A stretch of 64,000 nucleotides of DNA from Planifilum fulgidum (GTDB taxonomy: Bacteria > Bacillota > Bacilli > Thermoactinomycetales > DSM-44946): assembly GCF_900113175.1 (NCBI RefSeq), contig NZ_FOOK01000008.1, forward strand, positions 1-64,000, written 5' to 3'. How positions within the stretch are numbered: position 1 is the stretch's first letter; every line of letters begins with the position of its first letter. The notes under the pieces were generated by a model. That model made no database searches, was not told the origin of the DNA, and worked only from the letters and a program-made list of their open reading frames with translations. The position numbers and the translations under genes were made by a program. Positions 37,145-49,054 of this stretch are shown piece by piece.

Positions 37145-37221
37145 GTCCCAGTAGCTCAGCTGGATAGAGCAGCGGCCTTCTAAGCCGTCGGTCGGGGGTT
37201 CGAATCCCTCCTGGGACGCCA
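37145..37221 (+). tRNA. tRNA-Arg (anticodon UCU)
   Basis: A 77-nt cloverleaf with CCA encoded. Acceptor stem GTCCCAG pairs with CTGGGAC; the D-arm is GCTC/GAGC; the anticodon stem GCGGC/GCCGT encloses CTTCTAA with anticodon TCT; the T-arm GGGGG/CCCTC holds TTCGAAT. It reads AGA and probably AGG codons. It is a single gene between a strong promoter and a terminator. Confidence 0.96.
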
Positions 37222-44818: not shown

Positions 44819-47158
44819 GTGAAATCCGAAGAACTGGTACTCCCTCTGTTGCCTCTTCGCGGGTTGATCGTATATCCCAGCATGGTACTTCATCTGGACG
44901 TGGGGCGGGAAAAATCGGTCAAGGCCCTGGAACAGGCCATGGTGGACGACAATTCGATTTTGCTTTCTTCCCAGCGTGAAGTTCACATCGAAGATCCCAA
45001 ACCGGAAGATATATACAAAATGGGAACCATCGCCCGGGTGCGACAGATGCTGAAGCTTCCCAACGGAACCATTCGCGTTCTGGTGGAAGGGCTTCACAGG
45101 GCCAAAATTTTGGAGTATCTCCGCGATGACGATTTTTTCCAGGTGCGGGTCGAGCGGATCGTGGTCGAGGAGAAAACCGATCTCCATCTCGAAGCCTTGA
45201 TGCGCTCCGTCCTGGATCATTTTGAACAGTATCTGCGCCTGTCCAAAAAGGTGTCCCCGGAGACCTTCTCCGCCGTCTCCGATATCGACGAACCGGGCCG
45301 GCTGGCGGATGTGATCACCTCCCATCTGCCCCTGAAACTTGCCGACAAGCAGAAGATCCTGGAGACGATCGACATCAAGGAACGGCTGGAAACCCTGCTC
45401 CAGATCATGAACAACGAGCGGGAAGTCCTGGAGCTGGAGCGGAAAATCAGCCAACGGGTCAAGAAACAGATGGAAAAGACCCAGAAGGAATATTATCTGC
45501 GCGAGCAGATGAAGGCGATTCAGCGGGAGCTGGGGGAAAAGGAAGGTCGGCTCGGGGAGGTGGAGGAACTCCGCAACCAGCTGAAGGAGTTGGACGCCCC
45601 CGATTACGTCAAGGAAAAGGTGGAAAAGGAGATCGATCGCCTTGAAAAGATTCCCACCACGTCGGCGGAGGGGGGCGTCATCCGCACCTACGTGGAGTGG
45701 CTTCTGAATCTCCCCTGGAGGAAGGAGACGGTAGACGATCTCGACCTGAAAAAGGCGGAACAGATTCTGGATGAGGACCATTACGGCCTGGAGAAGGCGA
45801 AGGAACGGGTGTTGGAATACCTGGCCGTGCAAAAGATGGTGAAGCGTTTGAAGGGGCCCATTTTATGCTTTGTCGGGCCGCCGGGGGTGGGAAAAACCTC
45901 CCTTGCCCGCTCCATCGCCAGGGCCCTGGGCCGCAAATTCGTAAGGGTTTCCCTGGGCGGCGTCCGGGATGAGGCGGAGATCCGCGGCCACCGGCGCACC
46001 TATGTGGGCGCGTTGCCGGGCCGGATCATTCAGGGGATGCGGACGGCGGGGACGGTCAATCCGGTCTTCCTGCTGGATGAAATCGACAAGATGTCGATGG
46101 ATTTCCGCGGCGATCCCTCCGCCGCCCTGCTGGAAGTCCTCGATCCGGAGCAGAACAACGCCTTCAGCGATCATTACATTGAAATCCCCTACGATTTGTC
46201 CAAGGTGATGTTTATCACGACGGCCAACGCGATACACAATATTCCCCGCCCCCTGTTGGACCGGATGGAGGTCCTGTACATTTCGGGTTACACCGAACTG
46301 GAGAAGGAAAAGATCGCCCGGCAGTATCTGATTCCCAAGCAGCGCAAGGAGCACGGCCTGTCCGAGGATCAGTTCCGGATCAACACCAACGCCATCCGCA
46401 AGATCATCCGGGAGTACACCCGGGAAGCGGGGGTCCGCAACCTGGAGCGGACCATCGGGACCCTTTGCCGGAAAGCGGCCAGGGAGCTCGTCAGCGGAAA
46501 GAAAAAGAGGACCGTCATCACCGCGCGCAATCTTTCCCGCTATCTCGGGGCGGAACGGTACCGGTACGGCCGGGCCGAGGAGGAGGACCAGATCGGCGCC
46601 GCCACAGGTCTTGCCTGGACCGAGGCGGGGGGAGACACGCTGAACATCGAAGTGACGGTTCTTCCGGGCAAGGGTCAATTGACCCTGACCGGGAAACTGG
46701 GGGATGTGATGAAGGAATCGGCACAGGCCGCTTTCAGCTACATCCGGTCCCGGGCGAAGGAATTGGACATCGATCCGGATTTCCACGAAAAGCATGACAT
46801 TCATATTCACGTCCCGGAGGGGGCGATCCCCAAAGACGGTCCGTCGGCGGGAATCACCATGGCGACCGCTCTGGTGTCCGCCCTGACGCGGATTCCGGTT
46901 TCGCGGGAGGTGGCCATGACCGGAGAGATCACCTTGAGGGGGCGCGTCCTGCCCATCGGAGGGCTGAAGGAGAAGACCCTGGCGGCGCACCGGGCCGGAA
47001 TCTCTCACGTGATCATTCCCAGCGAAAACAAGAAGGATCTGGAGGAGATTCCCAAGAGCGTCCGCAGGGATTTGACCTTCTCCCTGGTGAAACATATGGA
47101 TGAAGTGCTTCAACTGGCGCTGGTGAGGGAGAATTCCGATGAGCGGAATCAAAGCTGA
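44819..47158 (+). CDS. lonA: ATP-dependent protease LonA
   Basis: A 779-residue Lon protease. The N-terminal substrate-binding domain ([20 protein letters not shown]) is followed by a coiled coil ([20 protein letters not shown]), Walker [13 protein letters not shown], Walker [14 protein letters not shown], and the protease domain with catalytic Ser in [14 protein letters not shown] and Lys in [14 protein letters not shown]. The start is GTG 44819 with GGAGGT about 12 nt upstream; the resulting length matches B. subtilis LonA (about 774). It overlaps ysxC by 20 nt. Confidence 0.96.
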
Positions 47159-47720
47159 ATATGTCGGGAGCGCGGTGAAGCCCGATCAATATCCCCGGGA
47201 CGCCCTGCCCGAGATCGCTTTGGCCGGGCGTTCCAACGTGGGAAAGTCTTCCTTGATCAACCGCTTGGTCAACCGCCGGAAATTGGCCCACACCAGCAGC
47301 AAGCCGGGAAAGACCCAGACGATCAATTTTTATAAGATCGATGACCGGTTTTATCTGGCGGACATGCCGGGCTACGGTTTCGCCCGGGTCTCCAAGGCGG
47401 TGAAAGCCGCCTGGGGGAGGATGATTGAGCATTATCTGACGAATCGGAAAGAGCTGCGGGGGATTGTTCACATCATCGATCTGCGCCATCCTCCGACGGC
47501 CGACGACCGCCAGATGTACGATTGGCTGAAACACATCGGGCTTCCGGCGATTGTTGTTGCCACCAAGGCGGACAAGATTTCCCGCGGCCGCTGGCAAGCG
47601 CATTTAAAACAGGTGCGGGAAGGGCTTTCCCTCCGCCCCGGGGATCCCCTGATCCTGTTTTCCGCCCAGACCGGTCAGGGGAAGGAAGAGTTGTGGCGCG
47701 CCATCCGGGAATGGCTCTGA
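47139..47720 (+). CDS. ysxC: Ribosome-assembly GTPase YsxC/EngB
   Basis: A 193-residue essential GTPase acting in 50S ribosomal subunit assembly. G-motifs: [15 protein letters not shown] (G1), [10 protein letters not shown] (G2), ADMPGYGFA (G3), ATKADK (G4) and FSAQTGQG (G5). The start at ATG 47139 lies within the end of lonA, as in B. subtilis. In that species hemA follows shortly; here 8.4 kb of other genes intervene. Confidence 0.95.
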
Positions 47721-47727
47721 TTTGTTC

Positions 47728-47820
47728 TTGACCGGCTGCCGGGAGCGGTATATAGTGATGCTGTGGAGTTCAGCGAGGGTTTGTCCCTTTCGGATCGCCT
47801 GCTTCGGGCGATATTTTTTT
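47728..47820 (+). promoter_or_regulatory. Promoter followed closely by a terminator hairpin, upstream of ddl
   Basis: TTGACC (47728-47733), 17 bp, TATAGT (47751-47756) form a good promoter with start near 47763. Only about 30 nt later a hairpin, ATCGCC 47794-47799 with GGCGAT 47807-47812, is followed by seven T (47814-47820). The predicted transcript is about 58 nt. It could be an attenuator for ddl (128 bp further on), a small RNA, or a terminator for ysxC that happens to follow a promoter. Confidence 0.6.
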
Positions 47821-47947
47821 GTCGCGGGGCGTTGTGCCGGTCCGGGCGAGGGATCCGGTTGACCCGGTTTCCGCCGGGGCAAACGTTGAATATGTTATGA
47901 AATGAAACGCATTTCCTGATGACGGGGATTGGAAAGGTTGGGTGAGA

Positions 47948-49054
47948 ATGAAAAGAAAGCTGCGCGTCGCTGTGTTGTTCGGCGGGAAATCGGGGGAACA
48001 CGAGGTGTCGCTGATGTCGGCGGCCTCCCTCATTCGTTCGATGGACCCCGAAAAATACGAAGTGTTGCCGGTCGCCATCGACAAGAAGGGAAAGTGGCAG
48101 CTGCGGGATAAGGCCGCCGCCTTTTTGGAAGGCAAGGTGGAAAGGGGATTGTTGGAAGCGATTCAAAAAGATGCTCCTTCCGCGCCGCCTGCCCTGGTGG
48201 AGGAAAAATCTCTGGCTCCCTTGGACTTCGAGCAGATCGACGTGGTGTTCCCCGTGCTTCACGGAACGTACGGGGAAGACGGCACGGTTCAGGGGCTGCT
48301 GGAACTGGCCCAGGTTCCCTATGTGGGGGCGGGGGTTCTCGCGTCGGCGGTGGGGATGGACAAGGTCATAATGAAAAAGGTGTTTGCCCAGGAGGGCATT
48401 CCCCAGGTTCGCTTCACCCACTTTATGCGCCACGAAATGAAGCAGTTGGAACGGGTGGTGGCGGAGGTGGAGGAGACCTTCGGCTATCCCTGCTTCGTCA
48501 AGCCGGCCAATCTGGGATCCAGCGTGGGCGTTTCCAAGGCCAAGGACAGGGAGAGCCTGATCCAAGCGATGAGATTGGCGGCCCGGTATGACCGGAAGGT
48601 GATCGTGGAGGAGTTTGTCCCCGCCCGGGAAGTGGAGGTGGCCGTTCTGGGCAATGATCATCCGGTTGCCTCCGTTCCGGGAGAAATCATTTCTTCCAAC
48701 GAATTTTACGATTATCGGGCGAAGTACATCGACGGGAAGTCGGAAATGCGCATTCCGGCGGAATTGCCCAAGGACACGGCGGAGGAAGTGAGAAGCCTGG
48801 CGATCAAATGCTTCCGGGCGATTGACTGCGCCGGGCTGGCCCGCGTCGACTTCTTCATCCGGAAGGACAATCACCAGGTTCTGGTCAATGAAATCAACAC
48901 CATGCCCGGTTTCACCCAGTTCAGCATGTACGCCAAGCTGTGGGAGCACTCGGGCCTCAGTTATCCCGAGCTGGTCGACCGGCTGATCCAACTGGCGATC
49001 GAACGCCATCGGGAGAAGGAACAGCTGGTCACGACGTACGAAGTGGATGAATGA
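47948..49054 (+). CDS. ddl: D-alanine--D-alanine ligase
   Basis: A 368-residue ATP-grasp ligase that joins two D-alanines for peptidoglycan. Landmarks: VAVLFGGKSGEHEVSLMSAA, VFPVLHGTYGEDGTVQGLLE, PYVGAGVLASAVGMDKVIMK, CFVKPANLGSSVGVSKA, the omega-loop EIISSNEFYDYRAKY, and the metal site VNEINTMPGFT. A Tyr-Lys (DYRAKY) omega-loop indicates the D-Ala-D-Ala rather than the D-Ala-D-Lac type. The start is ATG 47948 with GGAAAGG 10 nt upstream; GTG 47942 is possible. Confidence 0.95.
   Translation: MKRKLRVAVLFGGKSGEHEVSLMSAASLIRSMDPEKYEVLPVAIDKKGKWQLRDKAAAFLEGKVERGLLEAIQKDAPSAPPALVEEKSLAPLDFEQIDVVFPVLHGTYGEDGTVQGLLELAQVPYVGAGVLASAVGMDKVIMKKVFAQEGIPQVRFTHFMRHEMKQLERVVAEVEETFGYPCFVKPANLGSSVGVSKAKDRESLIQAMRLAARYDRKVIVEEFVPAREVEVAVLGNDHPVASVPGEIISSNEFYDYRAKYIDGKSEMRIPAELPKDTAEEVRSLAIKCFRAIDCAGLARVDFFIRKDNHQVLVNEINTMPGFTQFSMYAKLWEHSGLSYPELVDRLIQLAIERHREKEQLVTTYEVDE

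Follow-up and report, generated by a model that had tools for sequence, protein, structure and literature searches.

A promoter-to-terminator unit kept between ysxC and ddl in Planifilum may act as an insulator rather than as a sensing leader or small RNA

In Planifilum fulgidum, a promoter-like sequence is followed within a few dozen bases by a terminator, and both lie directly upstream of ddl, the gene for D-alanine--D-alanine ligase. Why should a transcript be started there only to be stopped at once? An earlier note on this DNA had offered two answers, attenuation of ddl and an undescribed small RNA. We asked what the layout, conservation and genomic context of the unit say about these and other possibilities.

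Layout of the unit and chance expectation

Within the window (the whole stretch of DNA analysed, 64,000 nucleotides), a Lon protease gene (NCBIfam TIGR00763) is preceded by a putative LonB-like frame, named by eye from the list of open reading frames, and followed by ysxC and ddl, all on the forward strand. The ribosome biogenesis GTPase gene ysxC (or engB; 47139–47720, including the stop) is placed by the same list and by NCBIfam TIGR03598 above its cut-off, and ends directly before the unit; ddl (47948–49054) matches NCBIfam NF002526 and NF002528 above their cut-offs. The predicted promoter, which we call P1 (47728–47756, forward strand), is of the sigma-70 type: its −35 hexamer TTGACC (47728–47733) and −10 hexamer TATAGT (47751–47756) match the consensus at 10 of 12 positions and are 17 bases apart, within the usual 16–18. 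The intrinsic terminator (47794–47820, forward strand) consists of the hairpin ATCGCCTG-CTT-CGGGCGAT at 47794–47812, with an 8-bp stem of which five pairs are G-C and a 3-nt loop, then an A and a run of seven T at 47814–47820. Such a GC-rich stem directly before a T run predicts termination, and the ATG of ddl (47948) lies 127 bases past the last T. Since transcription should start about 7 bases past the −10 hexamer, near 47763, the predicted RNA (47763–47820, forward strand) is 58 nt long. The earlier description of a promoter, a hairpin with seven T and a transcript of about 58 nt ahead of ddl is thus confirmed by sequence and by scan, the transcript itself being a prediction. A short GC-rich dyad, CCGGC-N-GCCGG (47732–47742), starts in the −35 hexamer of P1 and extends into its spacer; each genome of the genus has it, and it could be an operator or a product of chance.

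Consensus matches by themselves are no proof of such a unit, because their counts in a 2.8-kb scan were near chance expectation (one promoter-like site against 1.0 expected, five terminator-like sites against 3.3). Under stricter criteria, both strands of 464 kb out of the 3.38-Mb genome yielded 49 promoters, 86 terminators and a single promoter-to-terminator unit within 80 nt, the one before ddl, and five Markov replicates yielded none. Rarity alone is nonetheless weak evidence, since simple arithmetic on randomly placed sites (49 and 86) gives about 0.34 units in 464 kb. Stronger evidence, at the level of sequence, is that the predicted promoter and terminator are both kept in the two other genomes of the genus. 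When the 110-base unit was used as a query against 31 genomes, matches with E no higher than 1 turned up in 22, and E fell below 1e-9 in only three, the members of the genus. No second copy was found in the genome with this query, and we therefore rejected the idea of a repeat or mobile unit.

Conservation within the genus and across the order

The genus sample comprised three genomes, the reference (G000), G001 and the 67% complete G002, which we compared block by block using motifs as anchors. The P1 hexamers and their spacing are identical in all three; the P1 block matches the reference at 34/36 positions in G001 and 33/36 in G002, and the terminator at 28/30 in G001 and, in G002, at 29/30 plus a 5-base insertion (83% identity with the insertion counted). 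The RNA body between P1 and the terminator is identical at 22 of 30 positions (73%) in G001, where the transcribed stretch is among the two least conserved parts, and in G002 it is 140 nt long against 30 nt and cannot be aligned. Past the terminator, the spacer falls to 71% identity (G001) and 52% (G002). A block at 47865–47902 then stands at 34/38 in both genomes. Identity is 85% (G001) and 46% (G002) between this block and the ribosome-binding region, and 91% and 83% in that region up to the ATG. For the flanking genes, the last 210 bases of ysxC are 88% (G001) and 75% (G002) identical, and the first 210 bases of ddl 88% and 80%. In G001, the excess of P1 and the terminator over these genes amounts to only two or three bases; the argument from conservation therefore rests on G002, in which P1, the terminator and the block at 47865–47902 stand out above the flanks.

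Of the 42 genomes of the order, 41 entered a comparison of the ysxC-ddl gap; G041 was left aside because its contig ends in ddl. ysxC is followed by ddl in all 41, with gaps of 17–375 bases (by the tblastn-based start). The three members of the genus each have a terminator in this gap, and none of the 38 others does. Weak terminator matches in G009 and in G001 sit at the end of ysxC itself, and promoter-like sites with no terminator occur in the gap of G031 and at the ysxC end of G027. Long gaps are also found in G005 (299 bases), G019 (375) and G021 (351). Those of G019 and G021 (loci L211 and L212) share a related element with inverted ends, which in G019 read ATGTATCTGACCAC ... GTGGTCAGATACAT; a small mobile element is possible. 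The 299-base gap of G005 (locus L125) contains an insertion-like stretch, and the gap of G006, from the same genus as G005, is 119 bases long.

A conserved block closer to ddl

The earlier note had seen no other good promoter before ddl. This holds for the sigma-70 scan, but not for the conserved block between terminator and gene, which looks promoter-like. The block, here P2 (47865–47902, forward strand), reads GGTTTCC...GTTGAATATGTTATGAAA. On reading the ysxC-ddl gaps of the order we noticed a motif, GGAACC-N15-GAATAGGNTACAT, which 13 of the 41 genomes carry at 15–18 of 18 positions, 58–101 bases before ddl; control windows of the same loci reach at most 13/18. These motif scores are not independent, as we derived the consensus by eye from the very sequences scored. 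The carriers are nine of the ten genomes of family f2, all three of f4, and G026 (loci L119–L127, L129, L131, L132 and L139). The remaining 28 genomes, the genus included, score 9–13, which is not above the control, and among 72 ddl loci outside the order (by title from Paenibacillus, Cohnella, Bacillus, Desulfotomaculum and unclassified Firmicutes) the best score was 12, the same as the control. Across 42 genomes, all seven matches with at most one mismatch lie before ddl; at two mismatches there are 11 matches, five before ddl and six elsewhere, and at three the motif is about as frequent as a reversed-pattern control. We therefore rejected a regulon. One of the two-mismatch matches elsewhere (L177) precedes a putative glycosyltransferase-like frame, so named by eye. 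The motif may serve as an operator or as the promoter of an alternative sigma factor; by its resemblance to their sites, sigma-H or an ECF sigma factor might recognize it.

At the place and spacing of this motif, G000 and G001 have GTTTCC-N15-GAATATGTTATGA, and G002 a near-identical stretch. Their motif scores are at background level, 11/18 at the expected place in G000 and G001, and in G002 the best match (11) is located elsewhere. From its position, spacing and conservation, P2 is probably ddl's own promoter. This weakens the premise that ddl depends on P1, which lies farther from the gene. The upstream part of P2 is overlapped by an imperfect dyad, GGATCCGGTTGACCCGGTTTCC (47851–47872), a possible operator or hairpin, which in G002 is a perfect 21-base palindrome (GAAACCGGATGATCCGGTTTC). 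With no more than one mismatch it occurs only before ddl in the three genomes, and with two mismatches at four sites elsewhere, within open frames of 159–456 codons; for want of a convincing second site, we rejected it as a regulon-wide operator.

Insulator, attenuator or small RNA

The unit that the earlier note described is present, and its promoter and terminator are retained throughout the three genomes; neither function proposed for it found support. In Bacillota, attenuators with terminated leaders include T-boxes, riboswitches and ribosome-stalling leaders, and the arrangement here is like theirs in having a promoter, a short leader, a terminator and then the gene. Under regulated attenuation, P1 would be the main promoter of ddl, and a signal (D-cycloserine, D-Ala or cell-wall stress) or a protein would let RNA polymerase pass the terminator. 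The joint retention of P1 and terminator before ddl is consistent with this, and so, for G000 and G001, is the energy of the hairpin, which at 37 °C is weaker than 60 (G000), 56 (G001) and 45 (G002) of the 86 sampled terminators, and at 60 °C than 60, 54 and 53 of them. Such a weak ranking makes leaky readthrough into ddl plausible; leakiness would not be common to the genus, since the G002 hairpin is about median in strength. Unlike the known attenuators, however, this unit revealed no sensing part or alternative pairing, and its leader varies freely in length and sequence. We compared the pairing of each leader with the 5′ arm of its terminator to that of 500 mononucleotide-shuffled leaders per genome, and 396 (G000), 381 (G001) and 83 (G002) shuffles paired as well. 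By eye, CAGCGA of the G000 leader could pair with UCGCCUG in the terminator; we discarded this candidate antiterminator, as G001 has not kept CAGCGA and the computed pairing is no better than in shuffles. A frame that begins with an ATG at the presumed RNA start extends over 34 codons in G000 and over 13 in G002, but in G001 it meets a stop at the third codon. Another frame, starting with GTG and open through the terminator (45, 28 and 73 codons in G000, G001 and G002), was rejected as a leader peptide, as its starts differ and the only residues shared, by eye, are those encoded by the terminator. Comparison of reading frames gave no leader peptide shared by the three genomes. Rfam at the gathering threshold detected only a tRNA at 37145 in the whole window, and at a permissive threshold two chance-level matches in the window stretch and two in G002; together with the non-conserved leader, this led us to reject a T-box or riboswitch. 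Neither Rfam, the frames nor the leader comparison thus pointed to an attenuator sensor, whether aptamer, T-box or leader peptide. With P2 also lying closer to ddl, regulated attenuation appears unlikely.

A small RNA that base-pairs with other transcripts, with a length of about 58 nt in G000 and about 172 nt in G002, seems rather improbable too. By sequence it would have its own promoter and its own terminator, and G000 and G001 share a second small hairpin in the RNA body. Yet it is the body that is poorly kept, at 73% in G001 against 94% for the promoter and 93% for the terminator, and in G002 it is 140 nt long and cannot be aligned, which leaves no conserved pairing region among the three genomes. 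With a predicted folding energy of −17.4 kcal/mol and a z-score of −1.1 relative to shuffled sequences, the RNA is not unusually structured, and an Rfam family and a second copy are both lacking. Both a sensing leader and a base-pairing small RNA are disfavoured, then, because we found no antiterminator, shared peptide or Rfam family and the RNA body varies in length and sequence. A more sceptical explanation, to which we likewise give little credence, is that the terminator simply marks the end of the operon and the P1 match is functionless, arising by chance or left over from a former promoter. One promoter in 2.8 kb is what chance predicts, about 0.34 units would arise in the 464-kb sample from randomly placed sites, and the G031 site with no terminator scores as high as P1; against this, hexamers and spacing are identical in three genomes, although the adjoining non-coding DNA has diverged to as little as 52% identity (G002). 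Finally, selection may act on promoter-proximal termination itself: RNA polymerase would acquire a factor at P1, through the conserved promoter and the first transcribed bases, and this factor, in place of an RNA structure, would decide passage of the terminator. This is the least likely of the explanations, and quite a remote one; were it true, ddl would be under promoter-linked antitermination, and the leader sequence would be free to change.

Because both signals are kept and the RNA between them is not, the unit resembles a plain insulator or throttle more than it does a sensor or a small regulatory RNA. The explanation we prefer, with a probability of about one half, is a genus-specific insulating terminator with a promoter ahead of it, which would contribute at most leaky readthrough into ddl, P2 being the main ddl promoter. 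The terminator would stop transcription arriving from the lon-ysxC operon and also most transcripts begun at P1, so that P1 would give a short RNA ending there, the exact sequence of which would be of little importance; the few transcripts passing the terminator may provide a fixed, non-switching basal supply of ddl, with the main ddl transcript beginning at P2. The pattern of conservation favours a function residing in the two signals themselves, which would end upstream transcription and start a mostly short-stopping RNA. One difficulty is that a conserved P1 would be hard to explain if its RNA were useless. If the insulating terminator is what it seems, the locus is a small case of operon remodelling, in which the genus severed ddl from ysxC by a terminator and a promoter, whereas in most relatives the two are close neighbours. 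In part of the order, the comparison further revealed an upstream motif specific to ddl, an antibiotic-target gene.

The GC-rich hairpin and seven T shortly behind ysxC resemble the intrinsic terminator that insulates an operon end, from which the unit differs by the conserved promoter-like site between the last operon gene and the terminator. Searches of open-licence papers listed no account of this unit or of a terminated leader ahead of ddl. In Bacillus subtilis, transcription from a sigma X/M/V promoter located within ydbO is reported to continue into ddlA-murF, and ddlA has a further promoter upstream (PMC5126115). The gene neighbourhood there is different, and the passage on these promoters mentions no terminated leader; what the two cases would have in common is that several promoters serve ddl, including one directly ahead of it.
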